A stretch of DNA of 64,000 nt. Source: Anaerohalosphaera lusitana (lineage in GTDB: Bacteria; Planctomycetota; Phycisphaerae; Sedimentisphaerales; Anaerohalosphaeraceae). Under the pieces are notes generated by a model. That model searched no databases, had not been told where the DNA came from, and saw only the letters and a program-made list of their open reading frames with translations. Positions 14,204 through 37,003 of this stretch are shown one piece after another (within the stretch, counting starts at the first letter, position 1; each line of letters begins with the position of its first letter). The translations under genes were made by a program, and so were the position numbers. The DNA is taken from assembly GCF_002007645.1 (NCBI RefSeq), contig NZ_CP019791.1:4084593-4148592 (forward strand). The letters run 5' to 3'.

Positions 14204-14268
14204 GGCCGACAAAGAATTTCCGGCATGGCAGATAAAACAGTCTTTTTGATCCCAATAGCATCCCGTTG

Positions 14269-14298
14269 TTGCATAGTTGGCTGTGCATAGGGTATAAT
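14269..14298 (+). promoter_or_regulatory. Candidate promoter of the subtilase-like gene
   Basis: TTGCAT at 14269-14274 and a perfect TATAAT at 14293-14298, spacer 18; about 46 bases before the ATG at 14344. Confidence 0.45.
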
Positions 14299-14343
14299 CG
14301 ACATATTCATGATATTCGCGCTTTCAGGCGGGATTGTTTTGGC

Positions 14344-16089
14344 ATGCAAAGCAAATTGAGAGTATCTCTAAATAAGGTCGCCGTTTCGGCTCTGGTTCTG
14401 CTGATGATGACAGCGGGCGGTGTAAACGCTGCAGAGCAGAACGAACCGCTGCCGCTGCATCCAGGGGCGCTGGGGTATGCGGGGATACACTCACTGCGAG
14501 AGACGGATCCGAATATGACGGGGGCGGGGATAAGGATCGCAAGTATTTGCAGGAGCCTGACTTACGCGAATAACAAGCCAGAATTCGACTATCTTATCAA
14601 TCGGGAGCACCAATGCTTTGATGCTCAATCAATCGACTATATTGATGGTCCGGAGCTGGGCAACGGGCTTTCGGACCATGCTACTGCGGTGGCCGCGATA
14701 CTGACCGGGTTTGATGCTATGGCGACGCATCCGCTGGTGGGGGATTTCGTATTTGAGGGGGCGGCACCTGATGCCAAGCTCGAGGTTTACGAATTCTGGA
14801 ACTTTATCCGCTCGTACGTGTTTTCCGGCAACGATTTCAGTGCCGACATCGCTACAATGAGCGTGGGAACAGCGCTTCAGACGTGGTGGACGCGCGGGAT
14901 CGACAAGTTGGCGGAGGAAACGGGCGTGCCGATCGTGGCGAGCATCGGGAACGGCAATTCCGTGTATGATCCGCCGCTTTATCCGGCGATGGGCTCGAAT
15001 GTGATAGGCGTCGGGGTTATCGACCCGGTTAATTCAGAGAGCCTGGTGGATCGGCTTTGCAGGTTTTATCTGCCGAGGAGTGATCACTCAAGCTTCGGAC
15101 CGGCTGCGGATGGACGCTGCGGCCCGGACATTGTCGCACCCGCGAACAGTCTCGTGCCCTCGGTCAGGAACGAATATGACTATGAGGCATGCGGCAACTG
15201 GTCGAGTTTTGCGGCACCGGTGGCGGCGGGTACGGCGGCATTGCTGAAACAGCGAGTGAATGCGGAACCGAATCTTGCTGAAAGATTCAATGGACGCGGG
15301 GCCAATTGCGTCATAAAGGCCATACTGCTCAATTCGGCCAGAAAGATGCCCTACTGGCACAAGGGTGATATTACTGCCGAGGACGATCACGAGGTTCCGC
15401 TGGACCACCTGCAGGGTGCGGGCGCGCTAGATGCGGTTGCTGCGATGGACCAGTTGACGGCTGGGCCCGCTGAATCGGGCATCAATAAATCAGTCGGCTG
15501 GGACAAGGCGAGTATCGACCCGGCTGATGAAAGCGTCGTCTATGAGGTTAGTGTTGACCCCGCTGAAGATGCGAACATAGCTGTCACGCTCAACTGGAAC
15601 CGCCGTTATGCGGATCAGTACCCGTTTGAGGCTCTTTCGGATGATAACAGTGATCTGAGGCTGGAGATCTGGGGAATGGATCCTTATGATCCCTCGCGGG
15701 ACAAACTTATCGATTTCTGTGACAGCAGCAAGGACAATCTGGAACACATTTTTTGTCCGGTCGATCCGGCTTATTCGGATTATATGATCGTTGTGAGATA
15801 CAGTGGTCGGACCGAATTGCCACGGACAAAGGAGGTGTTCGGGCTGGCGTGGAACTTCGAAGCGAAACCCTTAAATACCGATCTAAGGTGGTTCGATCTT
15901 AACGGGGACGGGGAATCGGATGAAGCTGATCTGCTCGAGATAATGACCAAGGCGGCACGGATCAATCGGGAAGATGTGCCTGTGAGAGAGGCCTACGGCG
16001 ATATAAATCTCGATGGACAGATCGATGTTCAGGATATATCTGCTTTTCTGTCAAATGTTCGAAAAGCCGAGATATCCAAAGCTAAGTAA
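14344..16089 (+). CDS. Secreted subtilase-fold (S8) protein with dockerin-like EF-hand tail, catalytic Asp not seen
   Basis: 581 residues from ATG 14344 (signal peptide: basic start, hydrophobic ~12-25, cleavage near VNAA). The S8 fold is visible: the His strand SDHATAVAAILTG (H112), the oxyanion Asn in ASIGNGN (~203-205), and Ser in NWSSFAAPVAAGTAALL (S288). Where the first strand should read I-D-T/S-G it reads IASICRS (65-71), so the catalytic Asp is absent from its place. It may be inactive, or use another acidic residue. After a ~150-residue beta domain come two EF-hand loops near the C-terminus, DLNGDGESDEAD and DINLDGQIDVQD, both with good Ca2+ positions, as in type I dockerin modules. 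It is convergent with the giant beta-helix gene, which has a subtilase domain and dockerin too. Confidence 0.82.
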   Translation: MQSKLRVSLNKVAVSALVLLMMTAGGVNAAEQNEPLPLHPGALGYAGIHSLRETDPNMTGAGIRIASICRSLTYANNKPEFDYLINREHQCFDAQSIDYIDGPELGNGLSDHATAVAAILTGFDAMATHPLVGDFVFEGAAPDAKLEVYEFWNFIRSYVFSGNDFSADIATMSVGTALQTWWTRGIDKLAEETGVPIVASIGNGNSVYDPPLYPAMGSNVIGVGVIDPVNSESLVDRLCRFYLPRSDHSSFGPAADGRCGPDIVAPANSLVPSVRNEYDYEACGNWSSFAAPVAAGTAALLKQRVNAEPNLAERFNGRGANCVIKAILLNSARKMPYWHKGDITAEDDHEVPLDHLQGAGALDAVAAMDQLTAGPAESGINKSVGWDKASIDPADESVVYEVSVDPAEDANIAVTLNWNRRYADQYPFEALSDDNSDLRLEIWGMDPYDPSRDKLIDFCDSSKDNLEHIFCPVDPAYSDYMIVVRYSGRTELPRTKEVFGLAWNFEAKPLNTDLRWFDLNGDGESDEADLLEIMTKAARINREDVPVREAYGDINLDGQIDVQDISAFLSNVRKAEISKAK

Positions 16090-16484: not shown

Positions 16485-19400
16485 TTACAGCGGACTGATC
16501 AGATTGTACGTTGTCCAGTCGCCCCAGTTGATACGTTTGAGCGTACCATCAGGCCAGTTGATTACAGTACCGGTTCTGACACGATACCTGCGTGTGCTGC
16601 TTGGTGTTCCGCCGATTCTGAGAACATAAGGCGGTCTTGCCAGAGTGTCATCGTCTGTCCGACGCATCGTATCAAATTCAATGTTGTCCTGGAAGTGATA
16701 GATGATCGGAGCTGCGGGAGATTCCTCGTCCGCAACCGGTTCAACTGCCATGTAATGCCAGGAGCCATCGTTGTCTGAGTAGTATACAGGCTCCGTTGTC
16801 CATACAGGCGGATTCGGCAGAGGAGCGGTGAAGTCACCAGCGTCATCTGAAGTACCTATCGTGACAGTTGTCGTCAAAGCACCAGTCGTACGCAGGTCAC
16901 CGACGACCTTTGTGACAACGACCTTGTAATCCCAGTCCTCACCCAGGACAAGATGATCACCAAAGTCTACACAAGCTGAGCCTGAATAGGTAAATGTTTG
17001 CGTGAAGCCATAGTCAACGGATTCATCCCATATCCAGCTCTGGCTGTCGAGCATACCGAGATAGGTTATGTCATCCGGATTGGACTCTGGATCGATGATC
17101 TCGGGCCTGTCACCTGCAAGTTCCCAGAGACCGCCGGCTGCCGGCCTACGGTAAAATGCGAAGTAGTAGTCAGCATCAGCATCCAAGATAGGCTCATCGT
17201 TTTCGTCCAGTATAGGATCGCCGTTAGCATCAAGCTCAACTGCTTCGGCATATAGCTCAACCGGTGTTACGCCTGCATAGACGCTCTGAGGGGTACGTAT
17301 CCATCTTACTTCCGGCCTTACCTCTGCGCCTGCAACCCTGATGCCTGACCATCCGGTAGTATTACCTCGCGGGTCGACAGCACGGGTCCTGAACTGGAAG
17401 TCGAAATCCTGCACGTAGTCACTGACATAGTTAGGATCCTGGAACTCGGCTCTGATAGCCGGCGTCCAGTCTGCCCTGTTTTCAGGCAGCAAACGACTGA
17501 ACGGTGCGTAATTAAGGCACTCGAACTCGTACATCATACCGCCATCATAACCAGACCAACTGTCGAAGGATTCCTGTGCACCCATGTAGATCATGTCAAC
17601 GCCATCTATTTCCCGTATGTGCGGTTCAAGAGAAGGCGCCCATTCAGCGGGATCAGGCAACGGAGCACGTGTATCAAGAGCGAGCCAGCAGGAAGCGAAT
17701 TCCGCAAGATCCTCAAGATCCACCTTGCCATTGACAGTGAAGTCCGCACCGTTACACCAGTCATTGGCAGGACCGCAATTATCGAAGAGCCAGTTGTCTG
17801 CCAAGTACATGAAGTCCATAGTATCTACAGAACCTACACTGTCCCATGTTCTGTCAAGATCGCAGATCCTGCACTGTTCAGGCATACCCTGCTCAGAGGG
17901 CACGTAATGGTAGCCAAGATCCAACCTGCCCTGGTCAGTGCTTGTAGGCAGTGTATTGGTTGTCCTGGTGTGCAATCCGACTTCAAGAGCGGATATGTCA
18001 CCATAGTCCACGGCTGGACTTGTTTTTTCCTGCAATGGCGGCTGCTGGAGGTAGTAGTCGCCCATCGGTCCGGGTGCGAACAGCGGATCGGATGTTGCAA
18101 GGTCTGCTCCGAAGTTGTTGTCGCCCCAGTTGAGGGTGCAATCCTCACCAACGTTGAGATTTGCAAGTCCGTTCCAGACGTCAGTGTAGTCAATCGTAAG
18201 AGTGGAAGGCACCTTGTCATACTGATAATCCGACATGACAGAAGCCGAAGCACCGATGCTTGCACTGTTGTCCCATATGATGCTGTAGAGCACATCGACT
18301 TCACTACCATAGGACACGCTCAAGCCGCCGCCAAGAGAATTTTCCCTGGTAGCCTGATTGTCGGCGATCGTACAGTTGTTAAGCCATGCCTTGGCATACC
18401 AGTTAGCGGAGAAGCCGCCGCCGTCTCTGCCTGCTGTATTATTGGCGATCAGAGCGTTCTCAACCGTGGTCTTGCCGCTTCCGTATAGGAAGATACCACC
18501 GCCGGAACCACTGGCAGAGTTATCAAGCAAGCTGATGTTCGTCAACACGGAATTAGCGTCGGCACCATAAATCGCACCGCCGAGACCACTTTCAATGGCT
18601 GCAACGTTGCCGTGGAACCTCGTATTATCTACGGTGAATCGGCCATTGTTGTAGTACAAGGCACCGCCATTATAGGAGCTGTTGTTGACGAAATTACAAT
18701 CAGTAACCTGTGGATCGGCCCATTCAGCGTAGATCGCACCGCCATTATGAGCCGTATTGCCATCGAAATCGCAGTCGATGAGCTCGATCTTGCATTCGTG
18801 TTCGAAGGCTATAGCACCGCCGAAGGCGAAGAATGGGTCCTCTGTCGTAGTTGGCTCGTCATGGTGTTCCACCTGCTGACCTTCACGGTCCGCTTCGTTG
18901 TTGTCGAATACACAGTTAGTGAATTTGGGCGAACTGCCTGTTGCAGCGTAGATCGCACCACCATAAGTCTCTATCTGGTAATGACCAGCAGGGATTACAC
19001 CCTGACCCGTTGTAGGACCGTGAGCCGTATTGCCGCTGAAATAGCAATCGACGAACTCAGGTGTACTCTGCTCGTCACAGTAGACAGCACCGCCGTATCC
19101 ACTGTACTTCCAGTATTCGATATATGGACCGTAATCCCAGTCGGGCCATGGATTGTGTATCTCATCCCATGAACCGCCTCGGACACCACCATTTCCTGCA
19201 TTACCGCCGTTACCACCGGTGGCTTCATTATCTATGAATTCACAATTGACGAACTTGGGGCTTCCGCCTGGGCCAACATAAGCAGCACCACCATGTGCCC
19301 AGCCGCCCCAGCCGCCGTCACCACCTTGGCCGCCGTCACCACCGTGACCGGCTGTAACGGAGCAGGATTCGATCCGGCAGTTCTTGACGGTTGCCGAAGC

Positions 19401-22400
19401 ATCTTCTACGAATTCGAAAGCACCACCCGTTATAGGCTCACCATTTTTACCATCTGGCAGCGGGTTACAAGGCGTAAGGCCTGGGCAGCCGCTGGGACTG
19501 ATGTAGTGTGCATCCAAAATGGTCAAACCGTTAAAGACAGTACTGCGATCGGTCTCAGCAACAATAAATCCGCAGTTACGGATTATCGTATTCGCCACAG
19601 TTTCTGGGTCATCAGGGTTCATACTCTGAATTGTAATTGCCTTGTCGATAACCAGATGCAGTCCCTGTATCGGGGTATATTCCGCGGGCTGCAGCGTGAT
19701 GATATCACCGTCCTGAGCATCGTAGATCGCATACTGGAGTTCGGTGAAATCGCCTGCAACCTCTATTGTCCGCGGTTCATAGAACTTGACCTGTACAGTT
19801 GTGTTGCCGTCAATGGTCACGCTGTTCTGTACCGAACTAGCGGAATCATCGTCTGTGCCGTACCACTTAATACGGTGCGAGGGGTTATCAGGATGTGCGA
19901 CCAGATTCACTACGTCGCCGTCCTGATGAACAGTTACGCCGGCGGGTGTGAGTGTGCCATCCGGCTCCTTGATCGAGACGGTACCGTTGTCGGTCAGAAC
20001 TTCGACGACAAGTATGGGCCACAGACTGTATATCTCAGCCGTCACATGCTTGTCTTCGTCCATTGTGACGTAGTTGACCGGGCCCGCTACATCGTCGTCA
20101 TTGGTACCGGTCCACCTGACAGCGAAGCCTTCAGGCAGTTCGGGTTCGATCTGAAGCTTGACAGTCTTGTACTGTATGTAGGTGCCCTGCTCAGGCGTTA
20201 TAACATAGTCGCCGTCAAGCATTGTCTCCGGATAGTTCAATTCTGTTGTGAGCTCGTACTCGGTCAACTGCGTATCAAAGTGATGATAGCCCATGTCCAC
20301 GATGCCTTCGTCATTCACACCGTCAGTTCTGGTGTGGAAGTCGGCAAGCTCAATACCAGGATCGAAGACGTAGCCGCTGCCGCGATCTACTGCAGGACTT
20401 GTCTCGAGCTGTCCGGCCTCGACCTGGCTGAGGTAATAATCACCAACAAACAGGGGATCAGCAACAAAGCTGTTGCCTACGTCCACTGCAGGATCATCGA
20501 AGAAGTCCGTATTCGGATCCCAACCAAAGATCTGTTCACCGTTGATGTATGAGCCGTCATCGACTTCGATCGGGGGCGCACCAACGAGATTGATGATCGC
20601 CGCGCCTAGATCGACAGCCGGCTTAACGATCTCGGGATACGTGCCGTCAGGTGTTGGAACACCTGTGGTGACCAGTAACTCCTTGATCTGGCCCGGGGTC
20701 AGGAAGTCGCCGAGCTTATCCAAAGCTGCCGACTGAATTGAAGCAACGCAACCCGCAGCAAAGGGACAAGCTGAAGATGTACCATTAAAGAATGGGAAAT
20801 AATCTCCAGGATCATATCCACCTTCACCGACGATATCCGTGGTATATACTGGATCCGCAGGGGCAAGGATATCGAGCAGTTCGCCTGTCTGGGAGTACTC
20901 TGTGACCTCGCCTGTCGTGTCATATAATGCACCTACAGAGACAACCTTTGACAGCGCTGAAGGTGTAGAAATGCCCACCGGCAAGTATTCTTTGAAATTA
21001 CCCGATGCAGCAAAAACACTTATGCCAGCAGATGTGGCTACCTGTGCTGCAGCAGCCAGTGCAGGATTTTCCCTGTCGGCTCGTTCTTCGTCTTCGTATG
21101 GTATGAATCCGCCCCAACTGTTGCTTATGACCACGATCGGTCTGTCGGGGTCATCATACTGGTGAGTCACACACCAATCCCATGCCTGTACGCCTGCATC
21201 CGTCCACCACATACCTGCATCATCAGTCATTTTGAGAGCGTAGATGCCTGCGTTGTATGCGACACCGCCTATGTAGTCTTCGACTTCACCGAGCCAGCCG
21301 CCGGCGATACCCGCACAAGCAGTACCATGGGGCTCACCAGCAGGGAACGGATCTGCATCGCCGTTACCTGTGTCATAACCGCCGATCACTTTCTCGTTCG
21401 GGAACTGCACATCAGCGGCAGGGTCGCCACCGAGCATCGTATGTGTATAGTCAACACCGGAATCAACGATAGCAACCGATGCACCTTCACCATTATAGAA
21501 CTGACGCACAACCTCGGCATTACCCTGAGGAATCGCCTGTCTGAGTGCAGGCCTAACCTGCCTTACCGGCTCTATGAACGCTACATTCGAGTTTGTTCTG
21601 AGCTTGTCGTAGCCGGTCTGGGTAACCTCGCCGGAGAATACCGGTATGTTTTCGCAGCGGTTTCTGAGCTGCAGTTCGTGAGCGCCCATGTTGACAATCA
21701 CATTATCGATGCGTTGAGTAACTTCGGCCCTCAAAGCTTCGCGTGCTACATCTGATGTGAAGTTGGTCGAACCGATCAGCTCGGCCGCGTCACGAAGAGT
21801 TACCATTACCTTGACCCGGTCCTGGGTCTGGAAGCGATTGAAGATCTCGTCCTTATCAACCACGGTCGCGATGCTCTCGGTCGAAGGAGTCAGGACATTT
21901 GACATATCATTGGTGCCTGCAAAGGCATCATGAAGTTGAATATCGTTCGGATCCGGGAACGGGCCCACATCCGCGTAGTCGATGTCCAGCGAAGAGAAGT
22001 AGTCCACTGTCTCATCTGCGATCACGAAGCTCTGGCTGTCGAGCGTTATCTGTGCACCGGAGGATGCTTTGTTCCTCCAGATAATGCTGTCCTTGACGTC
22101 GACTCTACTGCCGTAAGCAATGTAAAGACCGCCGCCGAGGCTTTCACCGCCCATTACGCTGTTGTTGGCGATGGTACAGTTGCGGAGGTTGCCGTCGTGT
22201 TCGAAATTCACGAACACACCGGCACCGCTTGCACCGGCCTCGTTGTCAGCTATGAGGCAGTTCTTGAGCCAAGACCTGACCGGAACGCTGATCTGGGGCG
22301 TTACCAGCGACTTGGGATGGCCTGCCAGATAGACGCCGCCGCCTGAGCCGCTTGCGCTGTTTTCGGTGATTTCAAGGTTTTCACCCCAGAAGTCACTGTT

Positions 22401-25400
22401 AGCAGCGATGAAACCGCCGCCAACGCCGCGATTGAGAACTTCCTGGTCGCCGATCGCAAAGGCATGATCGCTGTCAGCTACGGCGCTTTCATAAGCATTG
22501 TTGCCCTGGAAGATCGTATCTGCCATGTTCGCATCGAGCGTCTTGAAGATCATGGCACCACCAGCGAGGTATGCGCTGTTGTTTACATAGTTACAGTCAG
22601 CGATGTCAAGGTGTACGATGTTGGCGCCGTATGTAGCACCGCCGATCGTGGAAGCGTTTCCATCGAATACGCAAGTATCGAGTGTGACGTCTATGCTAGG
22701 CGTTATTTCCTCACCTGCCAGCGGGCCAATTTCATAGTCGTAATCCAGACCTGTACATAAAGCACCGCCGTAACCGGTGAAATCTTCACCGTAGAAGGCA
22801 TTCTCGTTGCCTTCAAATACACAGTCCGTGAAATCTGCCTTAGCCTCAAGGGCAACAAAGACTCCACCACCTGCAGTAGGTACGTAATAACTTTCCATAG
22901 GCTGCATGAGACCTTGACCAACACCGCTCATGCCACTCTCAGTCCAGTTGTTTACAAATTCACAACCAACAAAATTAGGCTCTGTTTCGGGCTGAGCATA
23001 TATCGCACCACCCTTGGCAGTATATAGTCTCGGGTCTCCTTGTGGTCGAGCAGGGTCAACATACGTGCCTTCAATATCAGCAACTACTGTAACAATACCA
23101 CCATATCCATTACGACCACCTTGACCGCCTCTAGAGCCGCCATTTCCGCCATTAGAACCCCTGGCAAAATTATTCCTGAAAACACAATCAACAAAAGTCG
23201 GCGCAGTAAGGTCATCGTTCGCAAACCGTGTTCCCCCGCCAATGTAAACTGCGCCACCTAAAGCTTCACCTGGGCAACCACCATCTCCACCTCGCCCATA
23301 AGTTCCACCATTACCACCGTTTGCACCGCTGCCAGCCTCCACAAAGCAACCTTCTACTGTTACTTTTTCGAACAGCGGTTCGCCAACTGCAATATGGATA
23401 CCACCACCGCCGGAATCACCGCCCCAGCCAGAATCACCACCATCGGGCACATTATTTCCGCCATTGTTGCCGCCAGTGGCATCCTGCCCCCTTTTATAAC
23501 AATCACTAATCTGACAGTTTCTTATAGTATGGTCACCATAAACAATAACACCTCCACCATAGCTATCTCTACCGTCATTTCCTAAAGCACCTTCACCCAC
23601 TGCTGGGGGAGCACTTCCTTGATCAAACTGCGCATTACGAACTTTAAAACCATTAACTAAAGAAGAACCGCTACGATCCTCCAAGAAATACGAGCCTATA
23701 ACAGTAATGCCATTGTAAGCTTCGCCACCAACGTCAATAATGGGCCAACGGTCCGGGTCATCGGGAAATTCACCGCTTAGAACGATATCCTTTCCAATGA
23801 TTGTAATAGGGAGACGATATGTCCCTGGACTAACTATAACAACATCACCGTCGCGAGCAGCATCAATGCCTCTCTGAATGTCAGGATATTGGGTTGGCAC
23901 ATAAATAATCTCTCTATGGGTAATCTCAAACTCCAGTGCAACTTCCTGTCCGTCTTCATAGACAGTTGCCGTGTTCATTGTTTCAAAAGTAGTATCATCG
24001 TCTGTACCGTACCACTGATAGACGCGGTACTTGTCTTCGGGTAAAGCTTCCAGGTCGATGACTGTACCTGGTGAGACAGTGAGAGTTACAGGGTTGTCGT
24101 AAGTAACGACGTTATCGGGTTCATCGGGGCTAGTCTCGCCTGTTACAGCGTCAAAATATTCATAGGTCATGCTGCCGCCTTCGTTTAGCACACGAAGGGT
24201 GATGGTCCGCATGATGTCGTCGTTTGTATTTACAGGATAGTGATATCCGTAGTCGGCCCTTTGACCGTCGCCGCCGCCAGTTATCCGAGTTGTCTCGTTA
24301 CCTGTCAAACCGGAGCCAGCAGTACCTACCAACTGGTTCCAGAGGTTTTCCTCAGGATTGCCTGCATTGTAAGCCGGGCTGGTCACCGGATGTGTCGGAG
24401 GCTGGCTGAGATAGAATGTGTTCAAATCTATTTCAGTGCCAAGGCCGTCAGTGAGAGCCAACTGTTCAGCCGTCCACATAGGACCGACAGCGAACTGAGG
24501 ATCAGCGGTGCTGATGTGGGCCATATCTACAGCTTCATCACCACCAATATTTTCAACGACTGACCAGTCAACCTGGCAGCCGAATACGTCGTCGCCGCGG
24601 CCAAATCCCCAAGGTCTGTCCATGGATCCATCACTGTACCCTATGATACAGTGGGAAATGACAGGAGCAGAGTTTTCGGCACCGATACCGCCCTTTATTC
24701 CGCGGTCGCCGCCCTGGTCCGCACCTCTGTTAGCAACAACGGTACAGAATTGAACTTCCGAATCGGATGTACTGAAGTAACATGCACCACCGACATCGCC
24801 GGAAGTATTTTGTGTGATAAGACAATCATAGACACCGATGGGTCCGAGTTCCGCGTATACCGCACCGCCTCGGCCTCCGGCCTGGTTTTCGGCCATTATG
24901 GTATTGATTACCGCTGGGAAAAACTCTAGATCCGGATCTGCCAGATTGGTTGCTATCGACCAATCGATATATGCAGCAGTTGCGGCTGGATCGGTCAGCG
25001 GATCCGTTCCGTCAGGCAGTCCTGCTACAATTTCGTCAAATGTAGCCTGATAGCCATCTACGACAGGCTGGGGGTCCTCTGGATAGTAGAGTGAAACCGC
25101 ACCACCGTTGTTTCCAGTACATGCACGGAAAATGCAGTTTGTAAATGCTGGGGCCGCTATACCGTTTATCTGAACGGCACCACCGCTACCATTAATTACT
25201 GATATACCTTCAACGTTTGCGCCGTCAATTTCATCAAATATGAAACCTGTTGCAGCACCTTCACAATCAATTATACACTTAGTGGGATCCTCGCTGGCGC
25301 TTTTCAGATTGATCAGTTTATTATTGAATTCCAGATCGACGTTACCTTCGCCCTTGTAGACGCCGTCAGCAATAACTACCTCTTCGGCGGGGACAGCCGG

Positions 25401-27623
25401 GACAACTTCGGCACCTGTGTCGTCAACAAGCGCTGGGTTGCCGCCAACTGCATCATCAATTGCTTCCTGAATGGTAGTGAAGCGACGTGCATCGTCACCG
25501 CCGACCTGTACAGCAGGCCAGAGGTCCGCGACGATTGTCATATTGTCCTGGTAGAACTCGACGGTCTGTGTGAGCTGTGTTGGGTCATAGACTTCATCCG
25601 CAACACCATCGCCGTCGAGGTCCTCACCCCATGTAGCGACCGACCAGCCCATATCAGGCAGCACGGTCACGTCATTTGCATCGGGCACCTGCGGGTCGTT
25701 CCAGGCTGTGTATGGAATCTCAGCGGCAGGGTCCATTTCGCCGTGCAGTTCGCCGTCGTCGTAATCCACATGCGTTGTGATCTTTGTCTGCCATGTGAAA
25801 GTATCGGCAGGAGCTTCGAGTTGGCGATAATACAGCTCTACCGTTGTATTGGCAACGATAGGCAGATTCAGGACGTGGGGTTCGGCCGGATCTACGGTTG
25901 CGAAAACATCAGGCGCAACTTCCACCTCAATAATATCAGGCGCAAGCACATCGACAACTACCGGGACTGCGGCGTTGCCATCTACGGTAACCATCCACTG
26001 GTCAACTACGTAACGTTCATCAGGATAAGAATTCTTAATTGGCAGCGCTGTAATGACAGCGACATCACCTTCAGGATAGCTGGCGCGAGTGGGATCTACC
26101 GCACCGCCAACGCCACCGTCTACCCTGGCACTGAGACGGCAGGTTCGAGAGTAAGTCACTTCGACTTCCTTGCTCGAATCCATCGTGATATCGAGCGTGG
26201 TGTCCACATAGTTAGCGTCGTTTTCGTCCAGTATCTGAACACCGTCCACGAACCAACCGGTAATGTTGTAAGGCGGAACAGGTGTCGCGGTGAGCGTAAC
26301 AATCTGCCCGTCGAGATACTCGGTGCCTGCCGGATCAGCAGTAATTTCGCCATTATCGCTGGGAACGAGTGTCAGCGTATGAAGTGCAAGCTCGAACTCT
26401 ACAGTCACCTCAACCGAACCGCTTGCGGGGAGGGTGACATAATTTGTATTGTTCTGGGAACTGTCGTCGTCGGTATTTGTCCACTGTGCAACCCGGTAAT
26501 CCTGGTCAGGACTTGCAACCAGTTCTACACGACTGAAGGCGGGCAACTGCTGGCCGGTGGGATAATCCGGGCTGAGTGTACCGTTGCCGCCCACAACAGT
26601 TGTGGTCAGGGTGACCATTCCCGGTGCGCCTGTGTCAGGGTAGTGATAACCCATGTCAATGGCATTCTCGTCAGGCAGGCTGGAGGTATTTGTCGTGTAG
26701 CCGATACCGACACTTGTCAGATCGCTTATGACGCCGTAGCCCTCGTCGATACATGGACTGTCCTGCACCTGGCCGGCAGAAGTCTGGCTGAGATAGTAAG
26801 CGCCTTTCGGGCCGGGCGTGAACAGGGGATCGCCGTCAATGTTGCCCATACCGTCATAAGCGGACTTGTCAGATACTCTGGAGTAATCCGCAGAACAGCC
26901 TGCCATATCCACGTCATTGTCGCTGAATATCGAGTTCTTGATCTGGGGTGCTGAGCTCGCGTCGGCAACAATACCGCCGCCGGCACTGTTAACGATGGTA
27001 ACATTTGAAATGCTCGGCGAACTTGCGTAGCAGTCTATCGCACCGCCGGAGGTCGCCGCAAAATTACCATCAAAAAGACAATTCGTTATAGTGACGTTCG
27101 ATTCGTACAGCTCCAGCGCACCGCCGGCACGTTCTGCGCCATTGTTGATGAACACACAGTCAACAACAAATGAGCCGCTCTGATAGAAGTCTATCGCACC
27201 GCCGTCGTAAGAGACGTTGCTGTCGAACACACAATTGGCAATGGTCGGTGAACTGGCTTCACATTCGATTGCACCGCCGAAACTGGCATCATAGCAATTC
27301 CTGATGGTGAAACCTTCGAGCCTTGAAGTCTCGAGTTCGCCATTGTGGAAATAGAACGCCCTGGCAGCGGAACCACCGTCGATAATACAGTTGTCCGGAC
27401 CGTTGGCACTCTTGACCGTAATGGCCTTGCCGTTGAAATCAATTTCAAAGAATCCCGGACCGGCATAAGTACCGTCCGCGACCGTTACCACATCGCCGTC
27501 AACAGCAGCATCGATCGCAGTCTGGATCGATGTGTATTGGGACGGCACATTCAGTTCCGCTGCGGCAGCTAAACCGGCAAAACTGAAAACAAACGCGATT
27601 GCGACCAGCAGGCCTCTTTTCAT
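16485..27623 (-). CDS. Giant secreted beta-helix protein with embedded subtilisin domain and dockerin-like module
   Basis: 3712 residues from the ATG at 27623, which has AAGGG upstream and begins a clear signal peptide (MKRGLLVAIAFVFSFAGLAAAA); in-frame ATG 27659 is an alternative. Four parallel beta-helix modules start near nt 27560, 25500, 23915 and 19765. Each opens with an I-Q-x-A-I-D-x-A-x-D-G-D-type motif, continues with GGAI/GGGI repeats and ends in a DPLF...YYLSQ...DxGYHY cap. InlB/bacterial-repeat-like strands (WYGTDDDS-type) separate them. At ~21870-21570 lies an inhibitor-I9-like prodomain, then an S8 domain with Asp2054 (VDSG), His2099 (HGTACAG) and Ser2283 (GTSSACP). A dockerin-like pair is at ~17880-17675 and a ~395-residue fibronectin-like end follows. 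Inferred: a cell-surface or released adhesin or glycan-binding protein that can process itself or neighbours. No membrane anchor is visible. Confidence 0.85.
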   Translation of the reverse strand: MKRGLLVAIAFVFSFAGLAAAAELNVPSQYTSIQTAIDAAVDGDVVTVADGTYAGPGFFEIDFNGKAITVKSANGPDNCIIDGGSAARAFYFHNGELETSRLEGFTIRNCYDASFGGAIECEASSPTIANCVFDSNVSYDGGAIDFYQSGSFVVDCVFINNGAERAGGALELYESNVTITNCLFDGNFAATSGGAIDCYASSPSISNVTIVNSAGGGIVADASSAPQIKNSIFSDNDVDMAGCSADYSRVSDKSAYDGMGNIDGDPLFTPGPKGAYYLSQTSAGQVQDSPCIDEGYGVISDLTSVGIGYTTNTSSLPDENAIDMGYHYPDTGAPGMVTLTTTVVGGNGTLSPDYPTGQQLPAFSRVELVASPDQDYRVAQWTNTDDDSSQNNTNYVTLPASGSVEVTVEFELALHTLTLVPSDNGEITADPAGTEYLDGQIVTLTATPVPPYNITGWFVDGVQILDENDANYVDTTLDITMDSSKEVEVTYSRTCRLSARVDGGVGGAVDPTRASYPEGDVAVITALPIKNSYPDERYVVDQWMVTVDGNAAVPVVVDVLAPDIIEVEVAPDVFATVDPAEPHVLNLPIVANTTVELYYRQLEAPADTFTWQTKITTHVDYDDGELHGEMDPAAEIPYTAWNDPQVPDANDVTVLPDMGWSVATWGEDLDGDGVADEVYDPTQLTQTVEFYQDNMTIVADLWPAVQVGGDDARRFTTIQEAIDDAVGGNPALVDDTGAEVVPAVPAEEVVIADGVYKGEGNVDLEFNNKLINLKSASEDPTKCIIDCEGAATGFIFDEIDGANVEGISVINGSGGAVQINGIAAPAFTNCIFRACTGNNGGAVSLYYPEDPQPVVDGYQATFDEIVAGLPDGTDPLTDPAATAAYIDWSIATNLADPDLEFFPAVINTIMAENQAGGRGGAVYAELGPIGVYDCLITQNTSGDVGGACYFSTSDSEVQFCTVVANRGADQGGDRGIKGGIGAENSAPVISHCIIGYSDGSMDRPWGFGRGDDVFGCQVDWSVVENIGGDEAVDMAHISTADPQFAVGPMWTAEQLALTDGLGTEIDLNTFYLSQPPTHPVTSPAYNAGNPEENLWNQLVGTAGSGLTGNETTRITGGGDGQRADYGYHYPVNTNDDIMRTITLRVLNEGGSMTYEYFDAVTGETSPDEPDNVVTYDNPVTLTVSPGTVIDLEALPEDKYRVYQWYGTDDDTTFETMNTATVYEDGQEVALEFEITHREIIYVPTQYPDIQRGIDAARDGDVVIVSPGTYRLPITIIGKDIVLSGEFPDDPDRWPIIDVGGEAYNGITVIGSYFLEDRSGSSLVNGFKVRNAQFDQGSAPPAVGEGALGNDGRDSYGGGVIVYGDHTIRNCQISDCYKRGQDATGGNNGGNNVPDGGDSGWGGDSGGGGIHIAVGEPLFEKVTVEGCFVEAGSGANGGNGGTYGRGGDGGCPGEALGGAVYIGGGTRFANDDLTAPTFVDCVFRNNFARGSNGGNGGSRGGQGGRNGYGGIVTVVADIEGTYVDPARPQGDPRLYTAKGGAIYAQPETEPNFVGCEFVNNWTESGMSGVGQGLMQPMESYYVPTAGGGVFVALEAKADFTDCVFEGNENAFYGEDFTGYGGALCTGLDYDYEIGPLAGEEITPSIDVTLDTCVFDGNASTIGGATYGANIVHLDIADCNYVNNSAYLAGGAMIFKTLDANMADTIFQGNNAYESAVADSDHAFAIGDQEVLNRGVGGGFIAANSDFWGENLEITENSASGSGGGVYLAGHPKSLVTPQISVPVRSWLKNCLIADNEAGASGAGVFVNFEHDGNLRNCTIANNSVMGGESLGGGLYIAYGSRVDVKDSIIWRNKASSGAQITLDSQSFVIADETVDYFSSLDIDYADVGPFPDPNDIQLHDAFAGTNDMSNVLTPSTESIATVVDKDEIFNRFQTQDRVKVMVTLRDAAELIGSTNFTSDVAREALRAEVTQRIDNVIVNMGAHELQLRNRCENIPVFSGEVTQTGYDKLRTNSNVAFIEPVRQVRPALRQAIPQGNAEVVRQFYNGEGASVAIVDSGVDYTHTMLGGDPAADVQFPNEKVIGGYDTGNGDADPFPAGEPHGTACAGIAGGWLGEVEDYIGGVAYNAGIYALKMTDDAGMWWTDAGVQAWDWCVTHQYDDPDRPIVVISNSWGGFIPYEDEERADRENPALAAAAQVATSAGISVFAASGNFKEYLPVGISTPSALSKVVSVGALYDTTGEVTEYSQTGELLDILAPADPVYTTDIVGEGGYDPGDYFPFFNGTSSACPFAAGCVASIQSAALDKLGDFLTPGQIKELLVTTGVPTPDGTYPEIVKPAVDLGAAIINLVGAPPIEVDDGSYINGEQIFGWDPNTDFFDDPAVDVGNSFVADPLFVGDYYLSQVEAGQLETSPAVDRGSGYVFDPGIELADFHTRTDGVNDEGIVDMGYHHFDTQLTEYELTTELNYPETMLDGDYVITPEQGTYIQYKTVKLQIEPELPEGFAVRWTGTNDDDVAGPVNYVTMDEDKHVTAEIYSLWPILVVEVLTDNGTVSIKEPDGTLTPAGVTVHQDGDVVNLVAHPDNPSHRIKWYGTDDDSASSVQNSVTIDGNTTVQVKFYEPRTIEVAGDFTELQYAIYDAQDGDIITLQPAEYTPIQGLHLVIDKAITIQSMNPDDPETVANTIIRNCGFIVAETDRSTVFNGLTILDAHYISPSGCPGLTPCNPLPDGKNGEPITGGAFEFVEDASATVKNCRIESCSVTAGHGGDGGQGGDGGWGGWAHGGAAYVGPGGSPKFVNCEFIDNEATGGNGGNAGNGGVRGGSWDEIHNPWPDWDYGPYIEYWKYSGYGGAVYCDEQSTPEFVDCYFSGNTAHGPTTGQGVIPAGHYQIETYGGAIYAATGSSPKFTNCVFDNNEADREGQQVEHHDEPTTTEDPFFAFGGAIAFEHECKIELIDCDFDGNTAHNGGAIYAEWADPQVTDCNFVNNSSYNGGALYYNNGRFTVDNTRFHGNVAAIESGLGGAIYGADANSVLTNISLLDNSASGSGGGIFLYGSGKTTVENALIANNTAGRDGGGFSANWYAKAWLNNCTIADNQATRENSLGGGLSVSYGSEVDVLYSIIWDNSASIGASASVMSDYQYDKVPSTLTIDYTDVWNGLANLNVGEDCTLNWGDNNFGADLATSDPLFAPGPMGDYYLQQPPLQEKTSPAVDYGDISALEVGLHTRTTNTLPTSTDQGRLDLGYHYVPSEQGMPEQCRICDLDRTWDSVGSVDTMDFMYLADNWLFDNCGPANDWCNGADFTVNGKVDLEDLAEFASCWLALDTRAPLPDPAEWAPSLEPHIREIDGVDMIYMGAQESFDSWSGYDGGMMYEFECLNYAPFSRLLPENRADWTPAIRAEFQDPNYVSDYVQDFDFQFRTRAVDPRGNTTGWSGIRVAGAEVRPEVRWIRTPQSVYAGVTPVELYAEAVELDANGDPILDENDEPILDADADYYFAFYRRPAAGGLWELAGDRPEIIDPESNPDDITYLGMLDSQSWIWDESVDYGFTQTFTYSGSACVDFGDHLVLGEDWDYKVVVTKVVGDLRTTGALTTTVTIGTSDDAGDFTAPLPNPPVWTTEPVYYSDNDGSWHYMAVEPVADEESPAAPIIYHFQDNIEFDTMRRTDDDTLARPPYVLRIGGTPSSTRRYRVRTGTVINWPDGTLKRINWGDWTTYNLISPL
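17675..17880 (-). other. Dockerin-like EF-hand pair in the giant protein
   Basis: Two ~24-residue repeats (DxxxSVDTMDFMYLADNWL and ADFTVNGKVDLEDLAEFASCWL) separated by a Cys-containing linker (CGPANDWCNGAD). This is the dockerin-like form common in Phycisphaerae secreted proteins. The first Ca2+ loop is degenerate; the second keeps D, N, D and D at ligand positions. Confidence 0.75.
20600..21870 (-). other. I9-like prodomain plus S8 subtilisin domain inside the giant protein
   Basis: Residues ~1918-2342 of the giant protein. VKVMVTLRD and FSGEVTQ...VAFIEP resemble the inhibitor-I9 propeptide of subtilases. The S8 core then shows VAIVDSG, HGTACAGIAGG, VISNSWGG, FAASGN (oxyanion Asn) and GTSSACPFAAG. 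The insertion splits a beta-helix cap: an IDYADV strand stands before it and the matching DPLF...GDYYLSQ cap after it (nt ~20480-20400). Confidence 0.85.
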
Positions 27624-28244: not shown

Positions 28245-29522
28245 ATGAATCTGATTTGCAACAAATCCAGGATCAAGGGCAGAGTGCCTGTACCCGCTTC
28301 AAAGTCGCACACGATCAGGGCGGTCGCGGTCGCGTCGCTGGCGCATGGACGGAGCATCATACAAAAGCCGCTGGTATCCAGCGACACGCTCAGCTCGGTC
28401 GAATGCTACCGCAAACTGGGCGCTGAGATCGACACCAGCAGCAATGATGCGTGGATCGTCGACGGGACGGAGGGCAGGATCCCTGTGTCATCGGCGCGGA
28501 TCGACGTAGGTAATTCGGGGACCACGCTGAGGCTGGCTATTTCTTCGGCAGCACTGGCGGATGAGGGCACGTTTTATTTTACGGGTGACAAGCAGATCCG
28601 GTCTCGGCCCATACAGCCGCTGCTTGGGGCACTGAATGACCTGGGAGCCAGGGCCGAATCGGTAAACGGAGACGGCAAGGCTCCGCTGGAAGTAACGGGT
28701 ACTCTGCGGGGCGGTAAAACGCATATCGAGTGCCCGACGAGCCAGTACCTTTCAAGTCTGCTGATGGCTGCGCCGCTGGCGGGAGGCGAGACGGAAATCG
28801 AAGTCGGGCTGCTGAATGAGCCCGATTATGTGCGGATGACGCTGGACTGGCTCGACAGGCAGGGGATAAATTACGAGAATGACAATATGAAGCGTTTTCA
28901 TATAACCGGCGGTCAGCGGTATAGTGCGTTTGAGGGCCGGGTGGCTGCGGATTTTTCGAGCGCCACTTTTTTATTGTGCGCGGGTGCGATACTGGACGCG
29001 GACATTTTGCTGACGGGACTGGATTTTTCCGATTCGCAGCCGGACAAGGCTGTGGTTGACTATTTGCGTAAGATGGGCGCGGACATCACCGTCGGGCCAG
29101 AAGGCGTGGCGGTGCGGAACTCGCGTCTGCGGGGAGTCGAGATAGATATGAACGGAACGCCGGACGCGCTGCCCGCGATGGCGGTGACCGCGGCGTTTGC
29201 GGAAGGTGAGACGCGCCTGGTCAACGTTCCGCAGGCGAGGAACAAGGAGACCGACCGGATTGACTGCATGGCTCGCGAGCTTGCAAAAATGGGAGCTTCG
29301 GTCGAACAGCTTCCGGACGGACTTATTATTCGGGGCGGCGGTGTGCGGGCTGCACAGGTGGACGGTCATCATGACCATCGTATAGTGATGGCGCTGGCGA
29401 TGGCGGGGATGGCGGTCGAGGGGGAAACCGTGATCACGACCGCTGAGGCGATGAACGTCACGTTCCCGGATTTTGTCACGCTGATGGATCGGCTCGGGGC
29501 GAATCTGCGACTGGAAGGTTGA
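28245..29522 (+). CDS. aroA: 3-phosphoshikimate 1-carboxyvinyltransferase (EPSP synthase)
   Basis: 425 residues, normal length. It transfers enolpyruvyl from PEP to shikimate-3-phosphate, the sixth shikimate step, in the cytoplasm. Conserved residues: K20-S21 and R25 in PASKSHTIRA, the PEP loop GNSGTT at 89-94, R121 in QIRSRPIQPL, the catalytic D307 in GTPDALPAM, and RNKETDRI at 332-339. The loop is GNSGTT where many enzymes have GNAGTA. The start has AAGGACAGGG upstream. It is monocistronic, between the divergent giant gene and the convergent secretin gene. Confidence 0.94.
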   Translation: MNLICNKSRIKGRVPVPASKSHTIRAVAVASLAHGRSIIQKPLVSSDTLSSVECYRKLGAEIDTSSNDAWIVDGTEGRIPVSSARIDVGNSGTTLRLAISSAALADEGTFYFTGDKQIRSRPIQPLLGALNDLGARAESVNGDGKAPLEVTGTLRGGKTHIECPTSQYLSSLLMAAPLAGGETEIEVGLLNEPDYVRMTLDWLDRQGINYENDNMKRFHITGGQRYSAFEGRVAADFSSATFLLCAGAILDADILLTGLDFSDSQPDKAVVDYLRKMGADITVGPEGVAVRNSRLRGVEIDMNGTPDALPAMAVTAAFAEGETRLVNVPQARNKETDRIDCMARELAKMGASVEQLPDGLIIRGGGVRAAQVDGHHDHRIVMALAMAGMAVEGETVITTAEAMNVTFPDFVTLMDRLGANLRLEG

Positions 29523-29695: not shown

Positions 29696-32600
29696 CTATC
29701 TCAGGCCTGCCATCGCATCCTCTTCGACTTCGTCCTTGAGCAGGATGGTCGGTTTGACGAGAATGATAAGTACCTGTTTATCGTCTACCGTGCTGCGGTT
29801 GCTGAAGAATCGGCCGAGTACCGGTATCTTGCTCATGAGCGGTACACCAGCTTCGATTTCACGTTCTGCAGTCAGGGTAAGGCCGCCCAGAACAACCGTA
29901 CCTCTGTCAGGTACGTTGACGCGTGTTTCGACAGATTTTGTCTGCGTGATGGGAAGATCAAAATTAAGTGTCTGCTCTTCACCACCAATAAAGCCGACCG
30001 TCTCGCCGTCAACTTCACTTCCGATAAGCCGGTCATCCAAAAAGGCCATAATCCGCATGACTACATATTTGCGATCCGCGGTAATGGTCGGAGTCACATT
30101 CAGGTTCACACCCGTTGTCAACGTCGAAACCTCAGCAGTGAAATACTGGCTCGTGAGGGTGTCATCTTCGCCGACCGCGGTAGATTCAGACTCGAAGGTG
30201 TAATTCGATATATAGTTGGTGTCCGTATTGACGTTTATACGAGCGGGTTCACCACTAATAACAGTGACCTTCGGTGCTGTAAGGGTTCTGGCATTCTGAT
30301 GTGCCTGGGTAGCTCGGATGACGAAATCAACCGCCAAGTCATCTAAAGAACCACCAGTTCGGCCCCATGAAAAGTCTGTTTCAAATGACGGATTAGTTGC
30401 CCCTACACTACCAAGGGAGGAAGAAATACCCGTTGCTTCGGGCTGTGTCGTCTGGAAAGATCCTTGATCGATTTCTATCTCACCAATATTTCCGCCGAAC
30501 TTAAGGCGTGCAATATCGACGTCCAGGCCCACATCTTCGAGGAAGTTTTCATCCGCTACGATGAACCTTGTTTCGAGCGAGACCTGATTGTCAACGATGG
30601 TTCGCATTTTGTCGAGGAACTCCACGATCTGTTCATGTACTTCCGGGGTCTGCCAAATGATCAGACGTTGTGTTCCGAAAGGCCTGATGGTACCTTCACC
30701 ATAGGTTATTTCGTCGGTCGTGGTTCCACCAAGACCGCCGCCCTGACCGATTCCGCCCTGGTCATCGTCAACGTAGTCTTCATCCCAGGTTTCGGGTTTT
30801 ATCTGTGTGATATTGCCTATCAACTCATACAGGCGCTGGTAGTTTCCGCCGCCACCGCCGTAACCGCCACGACCGCCGCCACCGTAGCCACCGCCGCCGC
30901 CGTAGCCACCGCCACCGCCGCCGTAGCCGCCACCGCCACCGCCGTAGCCGCCGCCACCGCCGAAACTGCTGCCGCCGCCGTAGCCGCCGCCACCGCCGAA
31001 GCTGCTGCCACCGCCGTAGCTTCCGCCACCGCCGCCATAGCCGCCGCCGCCACCGTAGCTTCCGCCACCGCCGCCGTAGCCGCCGCCACCACCATAGCCG
31101 CCGCGACCGCCGCCCATGCCGCCGTACTGCTGCACCGGCGCACCGACGATCTCACTAACATCGTAAATTTCCGTATAGTAAGAAGCGGGCAGCGAATCTT
31201 CTGTCGCAATGGTAATCGTACCAGCCTCTACAGCGTAACCGATGTCCGCGAGGCCTTCGCCTACAGACTGCAGTACTCGCTCAAGACCGGTTTTGAGGGG
31301 TATCGACCTGAGGCCTTGTCCGGACAGACCAATAGCTTCTTCCTGGCCGATAAAGGCGTTGTTGATAAGATCCTTCCAAAGCACAGTGATGGGCAGTGGG
31401 GGATCGACAGAATTTATAATGATATCGATAGCATCCGCAAACGTCGTATCTTCGGTGAGCTCGGAGAGATCTACAACTTCCTCAAGCTGCTTGTAGACGG
31501 CTGCATCTGCAGGGCTTCGTCCTTCGAACTCTTCTTCCTTGCGCCGCTCAGCAAGTTCTTTCCAGTTCCTGGGATGGCGCATTTCCTTTGAATAAGGGAT
31601 CGACGCTTTGCCTGCTTCGAGGAACAGCTTGTATTCCTGTTCGTCTGCTTCCTGCATGGTAGCAAGCTGCTTTCTCCAGCGAATCGTATCTTCGAGCGAG
31701 TGCTTGAGAATCAGTGCCCGATCATTAGTCGGGTCCAGTGCGAGCACCTGCTCGACCTGGCCGAGCGCCTCTTCGTACCGCTGTTCTTCCTGGAAGGTTA
31801 TAGCGTTCTGGAGGTATGTCTCGATCGCCTGCTGGCGCTGCTGTTCGACTTCTTGCCTTTGTTCGCGGGCCACTTCCTGAGCCTGCTTAAGTTCTTCCTG
31901 CTGCTGAGCGGCATTGTAAGCCTGCTCGCTGGTATTGATAGTCTGAGAAAGAGCGTCGAGCTCGTTCTTCATCTCGGTATAAAGCGAGTTGCCAAGAAGC
32001 AGACGGTTCTTGTTGAGCACTGAATAGGCCTTGGCCAGTGACTGACGGGCATCAGAAAATTCATTCTCAGCAAGATATTCGTTCGCCTGCTGTGTGGCGT
32101 TTTTGACAACCGCGCGGGTGTAGCTGATCTGTATGTTGCGTTTGCGTGCGACGTAATCCGTGTAGGAATCTTCTTCGGATCGGGGCTGCTCGGGGACAAC
32201 TTCCTGCTGGGTCGGGACGACCTGAGTTTCTGTCTCGACGGGCTCGACCGCTGCAACCTTTTCGTCTGCTGCGAGCTGAGCGTATTGTGCGGGCGTGCGG
32301 CCGTTCATGGTAATATCAATATCTGCCGCTACGAGCTGATCAAAGCCTGCTTTAGCAGATTCGTAATCGCCTGCCTCGTAGAGCTTGATGCTGTCTTCGA
32401 ACAGCTGCTCCATTGTCTCTTTGTCAGCCTGCTGGTTCTGGGCCTGAATCTGTGCCGTGTATTCACTAACGCTGGCCAGGACTTCCTCCCGCTCTTCGGC
32501 GGTGAGGTATGGGCTTTTGACGACCATTTCAAGTTCCTCTTTGGCCGACTGATAGTCACCTTTCTGTGCCAGCTCTTCACTGGCGGCCAGTTTCTGGGCG

Positions 32601-33706
32601 ATCTGGCTGCGGCCTTTGGCGGCCTCGTCGATCTTGTCGGTCAGCGAAGCTATTTTCTGCTCAGATTCACTGCTGAGATACTGGCCGTAATCTGCCTGAA
32701 CGGATTCGAGGATTTCTTCGGCCTGTTTGAAGTTGCCTTGCTGATAGAGAGTCTGGGCGTCAGCGATGAGCTTAAGAGCCGTGTCACGCTGGGCCTGGGC
32801 CTGGTTGATCAGCTGCAGATAGTCGTCAGCGGTACGTCCCTGATCATCTTTTACATCTATTTCAGAGAGTTTGACCTCAGCAAAGCCCGCCCGGGCGTCT
32901 TCGAGAGCACCGCGGTTGTAAAGCAGTACGCTTTCGTCGAACAAGGCCTTGACCTGTTCATTATGGCGAGCAAGCTCATCGCCAAGGACCTGAATGCTGT
33001 CGGCGACCTTTACTTCTTCGGTTTCGGTCTCCTGAGCGGCCTGCTGTTGGGCAGATTCGCTCTGGGTCTGATCGATCATCTGTATGAACTGCTGGGCGTT
33101 GCGTCCGTCGGACTTGAAGCTGTAGTCGGAAAGAGCGACTTTGGAAAAGCCTTCTCTGGCCTTGTCGAGCTGGCCGTCCTTGTAGAGCCTTACACTCTGG
33201 TCAAAAAGCGCCGCCATTTCTTCTTCATTTGCGGACTGCTTTTGGCGGATCGACTTAATACTATTTTCCACCTGTTCCCGCTCGAAATCTTTCAGTACTT
33301 CACTGTCTTTGATGCCCTCGAGCATTTCGACAGCTTTTTGGTACTGGTGCTGGGAGGTGAGCTCTTTGCTCTTTTCGAGGGTCTGCAGTATTTCCTGGCG
33401 CTGGGCTATTGCCTGCTGGGCCTGCTGCTTTACTTCTTCGAGCTCGGCTTTATCTTTCTCGCTGATGTACTCGCCGGACTGATTTTCAAGTTCCACAACC
33501 GCCTGTTTAGCCTGCTGGTACTGGCCCCTGCGGAGGTACTCTTTGGCGATGCCGACAGTCCACACGACCTTTTGATGCACCGACTCTTCCCGACTTTGCG
33601 GTTGCGCATAGGACGTGTTACCAGTACTGAAAACGCTTATCAGAACTGCAAAACAGATTAGAACTCTCAGGCTTATTCGCCTTGGTGAAACGCAACTTCT
33701 TCTCAC
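29696..33706 (-). CDS. Secretin (type II/IV secretion family) with long helical N-terminus and Gly/Tyr-rich segment
   Basis: 1336 residues, about twice a typical GspD or PilQ. GTG start at 33706 with GGAG 8 bases upstream; the signal peptide ends near SYAQ. Residues ~35-740 are Gln/Glu/Ala-rich helical repeats of TPR type, with recurring LYxxGxxxxAxxxF units. An STN-like domain lies at ~745-850, and a segment of GGGGYGGG-type repeats at ~860-955. An N-domain-like part (FGTQRLIIWQTPEVHEQI) follows. The secretin core at ~1080-1325 carries VPDRGTVVLGG and GVPLMSKIPVLGRFFSNR. It should form the outer-membrane gate of a secretion or pilus system. No other secretion-system gene lies beside it. The TPR-like part could assemble the ring or bind peptidoglycan (inference). 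Confidence 0.88.
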   Translation of the reverse strand: MRRSCVSPRRISLRVLICFAVLISVFSTGNTSYAQPQSREESVHQKVVWTVGIAKEYLRRGQYQQAKQAVVELENQSGEYISEKDKAELEEVKQQAQQAIAQRQEILQTLEKSKELTSQHQYQKAVEMLEGIKDSEVLKDFEREQVENSIKSIRQKQSANEEEMAALFDQSVRLYKDGQLDKAREGFSKVALSDYSFKSDGRNAQQFIQMIDQTQSESAQQQAAQETETEEVKVADSIQVLGDELARHNEQVKALFDESVLLYNRGALEDARAGFAEVKLSEIDVKDDQGRTADDYLQLINQAQAQRDTALKLIADAQTLYQQGNFKQAEEILESVQADYGQYLSSESEQKIASLTDKIDEAAKGRSQIAQKLAASEELAQKGDYQSAKEELEMVVKSPYLTAEEREEVLASVSEYTAQIQAQNQQADKETMEQLFEDSIKLYEAGDYESAKAGFDQLVAADIDITMNGRTPAQYAQLAADEKVAAVEPVETETQVVPTQQEVVPEQPRSEEDSYTDYVARKRNIQISYTRAVVKNATQQANEYLAENEFSDARQSLAKAYSVLNKNRLLLGNSLYTEMKNELDALSQTINTSEQAYNAAQQQEELKQAQEVAREQRQEVEQQRQQAIETYLQNAITFQEEQRYEEALGQVEQVLALDPTNDRALILKHSLEDTIRWRKQLATMQEADEQEYKLFLEAGKASIPYSKEMRHPRNWKELAERRKEEEFEGRSPADAAVYKQLEEVVDLSELTEDTTFADAIDIIINSVDPPLPITVLWKDLINNAFIGQEEAIGLSGQGLRSIPLKTGLERVLQSVGEGLADIGYAVEAGTITIATEDSLPASYYTEIYDVSEIVGAPVQQYGGMGGGRGGYGGGGGYGGGGGSYGGGGGYGGGGGSYGGGSSFGGGGGYGGGSSFGGGGGYGGGGGGYGGGGGGYGGGGGYGGGGRGGYGGGGGNYQRLYELIGNITQIKPETWDEDYVDDDQGGIGQGGGLGGTTTDEITYGEGTIRPFGTQRLIIWQTPEVHEQIVEFLDKMRTIVDNQVSLETRFIVADENFLEDVGLDVDIARLKFGGNIGEIEIDQGSFQTTQPEATGISSSLGSVGATNPSFETDFSWGRTGGSLDDLAVDFVIRATQAHQNARTLTAPKVTVISGEPARINVNTDTNYISNYTFESESTAVGEDDTLTSQYFTAEVSTLTTGVNLNVTPTITADRKYVVMRIMAFLDDRLIGSEVDGETVGFIGGEEQTLNFDLPITQTKSVETRVNVPDRGTVVLGGLTLTAEREIEAGVPLMSKIPVLGRFFSNRSTVDDKQVLIILVKPTILLKDEVEEDAMAGLR
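30844..31122 (-). repeat. Coding tandem repeat: Gly/Tyr/Ser-rich tract of the secretin
   Basis: About 280 bases of near-perfect 12-21-base units (GGN GGN TAC GGN...) giving GGGGYGGGGGSYGGG and GGGSSFGGGGGYGG. The tract is in frame throughout. Length variation by slippage would be expected in multiples of three and so would not break the gene. Confidence 0.85.
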
Positions 33707-36652: not shown

Positions 36653-36712
36653 GCCCGTAAGAGTCGATAATTATAAAAAGGTTTCAAATACAGATATACA
36701 GGAGTAGAACTT

Positions 36713-37003
36713 ATGAAGCTCAAACCTTTGGACGACAGAGTTGTGGTAAAGCCACAAGAAGCTGAAGAAAAGACTGCAGGCGGCATCGTTCTGCCGGACA
36801 GCGCTAAAGAAAAACCACTTATGGGTGAAGTCGTAGCGATAGGCACGGGCAAACTGCTCGAAAACGGCAGCCGCGGTGAAATGTCCGTCAAAAAAGGCGA
36901 CACAGTTCTGTACGGCAAGTACGGCGGAAGCGACGTCGAAGTAGAAGGCACCGAGTACAAGATCCTTCGCGAAGCGGAAATTCTCGGTATCGTTGAAAAG
37001 TAA
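36713..37003 (+). CDS. groES: Co-chaperonin GroES
   Basis: 96 residues, standard length. It caps the GroEL ring. It opens [13 protein letters not shown], has the mobile loop [18 protein letters not shown] (residues ~17-34) including the Ile-Val-Leu contact for GroEL, and ends with [18 protein letters not shown] lies upstream of the ATG. It sits between two groEL genes rather than in front of one. Confidence 0.97.

Follow-up and report, generated by a model that had tools for sequence, protein, structure and literature searches.

The 64,000-nucleotide stretch of the Anaerohalosphaera lusitana genome analysed here (the window) encodes a giant secreted beta-helix protein that holds, inside one of its helix units, a prodomain and a subtilisin-like protease that together form a complete and probably active pro-protease. 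The insert occupies a defined loop, or slot, and 39 distinct protease insertions were found at this same loop in giants from a single order of planctomycetes; in other helix units the loop is empty or holds a domain of another kind. The reading that we consider probable is that of a surface rod, linked to a secretin, on which domains are displayed, among them a self-processing protease whose cut would nick the rod while the pieces are at first held together. In the open literature we found no description of such a natural slot or of an inserted pro-subtilase.

Architecture of the giant protein

The protein is 3712 amino acids long and is encoded by one open frame on the minus strand (16485–27623, with the ATG at 27623 and the stop at 16485–16487); all features of this frame given below lie on the same strand. 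It begins with a probable Sec signal peptide, judged by eye (residues 1–22, MKRGLLVAIAFVFSFAGLAAAA, 27558–27623), and comprises four helix domains, InlB-B-like repeats and a dockerin-like segment. A Pfam scan returned seven Beta_helix stretches (E 1e-35), four InlB-B-like repeats and a single Peptidase_S8 match at residues 2045–2321 (E 3e-34), flanked by Beta_helix matches and one of four S8 matches in the whole genome. Read up to an E of 1, the Pfam scan showed no Autotransporter (C-terminal beta-barrel translocator) domain anywhere in the giant.

The insert interrupts a single helix unit, as the earlier note had proposed. The third beta-helix (residues 1238–1886, 21966–23912) runs up to the strand IDYADV (1881–1886), ahead of the slot, and behind the insert lies the remainder of the unit with its cap (residues 2346–2455, PPIEVDD...DPLFVGDYYLSQ...VDMGYHH, 20259–20588, of which PPIEVDD..DPLFVGDYYLSQ covers 2350–2400). 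In the last coils of the fourth helix (17904–18467) the same slot is empty (IDYTDVWNGLANLNVGEDCTLNW...SDPLF), so that the giant itself contains a natural empty site. An AlphaFold2 model of the fourth helix is a regular beta-helix with short strands (pLDDT 91.7, pTM 0.91), in which the empty slot is a turn of ~10 residues joining two strands. When this model was compared with solved structures by Foldseek, Rhombotarget A was matched with a probability of 0.97 at a weak E of 0.05, and pectate lyases came lower. The Pfam profile and the model of the fourth helix both identify the fold as a right-handed parallel beta-helix. The dockerin-like segment (residues ~3251–3330, 17634–17873) is of the type typical of the relatives' group; two repeats, which start with TRAPLPDPAEW and FTAPLPNPPVW, come after it, and they also come after the N-terminal S8 domain in relatives.

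The inserted prodomain and protease

The insert is entered through a flexible, G/S/P-rich linker (residues 1887–1919, 21867–21965, pLDDT 37–54), which leads to an I9-type prodomain of ferredoxin-like fold (residues 1920–2027, 21543–21866) and then to the S8 protease domain (residues 2028–2345, 20589–21542). The catalytic residues that the earlier note had named are in place within the S8 fold, namely Asp2054 (21462–21464), His2099 (21327–21329) and Ser2283 (20775–20777), together with the oxyanion Asn, which is Asn2209 (20997–20999). The predicted self-cleavage bond is L2027|R2028 (21540–21545), by comparison with the processing of subtilisin and pernisine (PMC10580911).

An AlphaFold2 model of residues 1740–2470, built from an alignment of the giant and 36 relatives, has a mean pLDDT of 78.6 and contains a confidently folded prodomain and protease. 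Blocks of the prodomain (residues ~1920–2019) lie mostly at pLDDT 81–96 and most of the protease exceeds 80; values below 50 occur in the linker (1891–1916) and at the prodomain–protease junction (2027–2036). Within the split unit the cap is modelled less well than the inserted domains, with block pLDDT of roughly 50–90, and the placement of the insert relative to the rod is not fixed by the model. Among solved structures, the modelled insert is matched best by unautoprocessed pro-subtilisin E, over both domains (Z 38.5, rmsd 2.9, 341 residues). Pro-forms take all of the top ten places, Foldseek is concordant, many subtilisins match at Z above 33, and Tk-subtilisin likewise matches over prodomain and protease. 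Pfam makes no I9 call in the giant, and the relatives fall just under the cut-off (20.4 versus 21.2 bits); it is the two-domain fold match, with these weak I9 matches in relatives, that identifies an I9-type prodomain immediately before the protease. The nearest NCBIfam name for the inserted protease, T7SS mycosin, was rejected at 87 of the 279 bits needed. Open frame, Pfam match and predicted fold thus bear out the earlier proposal of a prodomain and S8 domain inside a giant beta-helix protein.

Conservation of the insertion

The insert is no peculiarity of this giant: the same insertion is present in many relatives. The protease family was found in 29 of the 59 relatives searched, and almost all of its closest copies are contained in giant frames of 2000–10,600 amino acids, some of which hold two copies. 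Within the order, 50 of 148 genomes carry the family (E <= 1e-90), and in a sample of the phylum it was found in only 4 of 294 genomes, one of them outside the order. Two frames, G092:C56 (12,792 amino acids) and G048:C19 (10,565 amino acids), have two protease copies each, and the slot context was seen for the latter. A viral origin of the insert was considered and dropped, the viral contigs containing one distant match only.

Slots were recognized with profiles of the 98-residue segment ahead of the insert and the 92-residue segment behind it. Every slot copy is preceded by ..itYSDIgp.. and followed by ..pIYVEdGC.l.GWdp..NieeDPlF.gdYyLSq. Slot copies form one clade (SH-aLRT 87, 40 rows in the tree, one of them partial), for which the support is moderate, and N-terminal and stand-alone relatives, including those from Verrucomicrobia, Hydrogenedentes and Desulfobacter, fall outside it. 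The catalytic Asp, His and Ser and the oxyanion Asn are present in every slot copy that covers those positions. The predicted P1 residue is Leu in 33 and Met in 8 of the slot copies, so that all 41 have one or the other, as compared with 29 of 35 N-terminal copies, and a Gln stands two residues past the predicted cut in 41 of 41. Mean pairwise identity is highest in the protease segment, at 64%, against 44–46% in helix, cap and prodomain. On the N side of the insert the linker is 21–35 residues long with a mean pairwise identity of 19%, and on the C side it is 0–8 residues long. The giant's own copy is among the more divergent in the tree (end branch 0.79).

One loop that takes several kinds of domain

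In the remaining helix units of slot proteins, the two motifs either almost adjoin or stand 220–285 residues apart. The inserts of this latter size are vWA domains, nidogen-like domains (Pfam NIDO, E 1e-26), one choice-of-anchor-L domain (E 8e-74) and one propeller-like domain, which was recognized by eye. Of the 134 well-scored slots in a census, 71 are empty, 39 have S8, 10 have vWA and 9 have NIDO; the remainder comprises the single choice-of-anchor-L and propeller-like inserts, two slots without a scored cap and one cut by the end of a contig or frame. Outside the slots of slot proteins, no vWA or NIDO domain was seen save one fragment in a broken frame. Because relatives load this loop with other kinds of domain, it looks like a natural display socket, and because vWA and NIDO domains, which do not cleave, occupy it in other units, display appears to be its common use. 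In the giant's own genome, no further protein was found in which a single unit scores high for both slot flanks. The final slot need not be empty, and a rule to that effect was dropped, as three proteins (G040, L087, L075) end with a protease slot.

Genomic context

A gene for a TPR-secretin of 1336 amino acids (29696–33706, minus strand; Secretin Pfam E 2e-30) lies near the giant and is syntenic with it in much of the order. This secretin resembles MshL, GspD and PilQ most, yet it scores under every curated cut-off. In ten genomes it is encoded on the same strand as the giant and 8–213 bp upstream, approximate distances read from stop-to-stop frames. A gene for EPSP synthase (28245–29522, plus strand), a conserved synteny marker of the locus, separates giant and secretin in the window and in several relatives. 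It is by this synteny that the giant is linked to an outer-membrane secretin. The f2 family (G035, G041, G045, G049), which also has slot proteases, showed no such linkage at its loci. Also near the locus are two adjacent Cpn60 chaperonin genes (34949–38668, plus strand), both of which are near the giant in genome G004 as well.

In same-locus orthologues from other genera the slots are empty. Most of these empty-slot orthologues, about ten of those checked, have an N-terminal S8 domain instead, mostly with a fervidolysin-type prodomain, and one same-locus orthologue has an M6 peptidase match. Taken together, these orthologues indicate that a protease recurs in the giant while its kind and position vary, and they agree with the earlier remark that S8 domains are usually terminal in such proteins. 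The slot protease is unlikely, for most of these orthologues, to be their N-terminal S8 domain relocated, since the latter has a fervidolysin-type prodomain and scores 54–87 bits as against more than 590 for slot copies, and since two giants carry both an N-terminal S8 domain and a slot protease. Nonetheless, the slot clade may descend from an N-terminal form, given the close relative that L136 and G026/G023 carry N-terminally.

An S8-like neighbour of the giant (14266–16089, plus strand) has a C-terminal dockerin-like segment, and in several genomes a relative of this neighbour is found 3′ of the giant. Its catalytic Asp motif (GIRIASICRS) and a Pfam match that starts only from position 16 suggest that the neighbour may have been altered or have lost its protease activity.

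Proposed mechanism and alternative explanations

In the mechanism that we propose, the giant would be exported by Sec and would form, on the surface or in the matrix, a very long rod of right-handed beta-helices stacked on one another. It probably crosses the outer membrane through the TPR-secretin encoded nearby, although this choice of exporter is a guess from synteny. In each later helix a fixed loop in the end coil takes whole globular domains. The subtilase and its I9 prodomain fill one slot of the giant, leashed by ~30 residues on the N side and joined with almost no linker on the C side. Once exported, the protease would be folded by the prodomain and would then cut at about L2027|R2028 and so nick the rod within one helix unit. 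That the inserted protease cuts itself is likely from the features analysed here, although the predicted site is uncertain by about three residues, as the structure alignment allows 2025–2028. In known subtilases the prodomain is cut intramolecularly from the folded protease and then remains in a non-covalent complex; pernisine is cut at Met|Ala, forms such a complex and becomes active once its prodomain is degraded (PMC10580911).

A cut at the junction would give an N part of about 2000 residues that ends in the prodomain and a C part of about 1685 residues that starts with the protease, sizes that replace the earlier estimate of ~1900 and ~1400. With an N-side linker of 21–35 residues and a C-side linker of 0–8, the protease would be left rigid on the C-terminal piece and the prodomain leashed on the N-terminal piece. 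Both parts would at first be held by the prodomain–protease complex and by the stacking of the last coils, for which reason the halves are expected to stay associated initially and their immediate release is less likely. Degradation of the prodomain could later free the parts and activate the protease, which may then serve in local proteolysis or matrix remodelling.

Self-cleavage, which the earlier note had raised, is plausible given the invariant catalytic residues, the P1 Leu or Met and the junction that is disordered in the model. These features, with the retained prodomain, would also suit an insert whose purpose is folding-triggered release, that is, the cutting of the rod into two separately acting halves, and two copies in the longest giants would in that case yield pieces of a few thousand residues each. 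We nonetheless regard such a purpose as unlikely: the same slot has non-cleaving domains elsewhere, orthologues retain the entire rod with an empty slot, an unsystematic look revealed no lineage with the halves as separate genes, and the beta-helix cap and prodomain complex should keep the halves together at first. There are subtilases that are active, or are held, without self-cleavage, and one can imagine that the prodomain here folds and inhibits the protease while the chain stays uncut or is cut only in trans, leaving an enzyme borne on its stalk. The display of other domains in the slot and the tight fusion of the C side to the rod speak for this arrangement. However, the P1 Leu or Met and the Gln at +2 are at least as strict in slot copies as in N-terminal ones, which would be unexpected if cutting were unwanted, and we consider this tethered arrangement improbable. 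As a general description, "stalk-borne protease", the other suggestion of the earlier note, is the better one, the same loop bearing non-cleaving vWA and NIDO domains in other units.

The divergence of the giant's own copy might suggest a degenerate passenger without function, but catalytic residues that are invariant and a protease segment that is better conserved than the flanking helix and cap make decay very improbable. That two genes were fused in assembly, or that the frame arose by chance, has a negligible probability: the genome is a single 4.25 Mb contig, and many assemblies made independently have the same-loop fusion, with this architecture in a single open frame free of internal stops. 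The boundary between two genes that the earlier note had allowed for is thereby excluded.

The locus makes it possible to ask whether a protease built into a rod can cut that rod without breaking it apart. More generally, the slot offers a handle on giant planctomycete genes, in terms of the cargo displayed, the possible export route and the reason why a protease recurs. The host proteins of up to ~10,600 residues, and the one further frame with two protease copies, have no known function.

Relation to known systems

Pro-subtilisin E, Tk-subtilisin and pernisine (MEROPS S8A with I9) share the prodomain and protease folds, the catalytic residues and the Leu or Met at the predicted P1 position. 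In contrast to these pro-subtilisins, the unit described here lies inside a host domain behind ~2000 residues, and the processing cut would fall within a giant rod instead of trimming an N terminus. Subtilase autotransporters of the type of Ssp from Serratia marcescens likewise combine S8 and a right-handed beta-helix on a secreted protein. In Ssp, however, the S8 domain is N-terminal and caps the beta-helix, and a C-terminal translocator domain is present (PMC9977779), whereas the giant's protease is inserted internally and Pfam finds no translocator.

A parallel to the display of domains comes from the SPATE side domains, domains d1–d5 of Hbp and the Hbp platform, in which a stem carries globular side domains that can be replaced by foreign ones, much as the giant's does; the swapping of side domains on the beta-helical stem of Hbp is an engineered display method (PMC3521207). 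The giants differ from Hbp in using one fixed loop, in a natural exchange of S8, vWA, NIDO and other domains, and in having a protease with its prodomain as one cargo. What is known as an engineering trick appears here as a natural and recurrent event at a single loop. Chlamydial Pmp and other right-handed beta-helix surface proteins share the GGA(I/V/L) and FxxN repeats (Chlam_PMP is below its cut-off in the giant), but the giant is much longer, has inserted domains and has no beta-barrel that could be found. In the GAIN domains of adhesion GPCRs, a host domain cleaves itself and the pieces are held non-covalently. The giant would be alike if it is cut, although there is no homology and the cutter here would be the inserted protease and not the host fold.

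A possible second host fold

Nine relatives that fall outside the slot clade have the pro-protease between a PxIRIEPxxLxF-type strand and the motif YNDGxGxLxVxxI, in that order. The part behind the protease gives a weak choice-of-anchor-D match in L118 and a weak HYDIN-type Ig match in L142, both of which start near profile position 8. This weak evidence suggests that the pro-protease may sit inside an Ig-like domain, behind its first strand; if so, the insertion of a domain within a domain would be a habit of the protease family.

A broader proposal would have a modular display platform extend across the order, with orthologous, secretin-linked rods, one loop per helix that takes swappable domains, a protease cut that acts as a releasable non-covalent joint, and, as the second, Ig-like host suggests, a general mechanism of split host domains. 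We put this forward tentatively, as a possibility about which we are more doubtful than confident. The apparent Ig-like insertions are those in L106, L111, L112, L118, L133, L142, L144, L150 and G034 (via L026), and their hosts belong to Verrucomicrobia, Hydrogenedentota and other planctomycetes.
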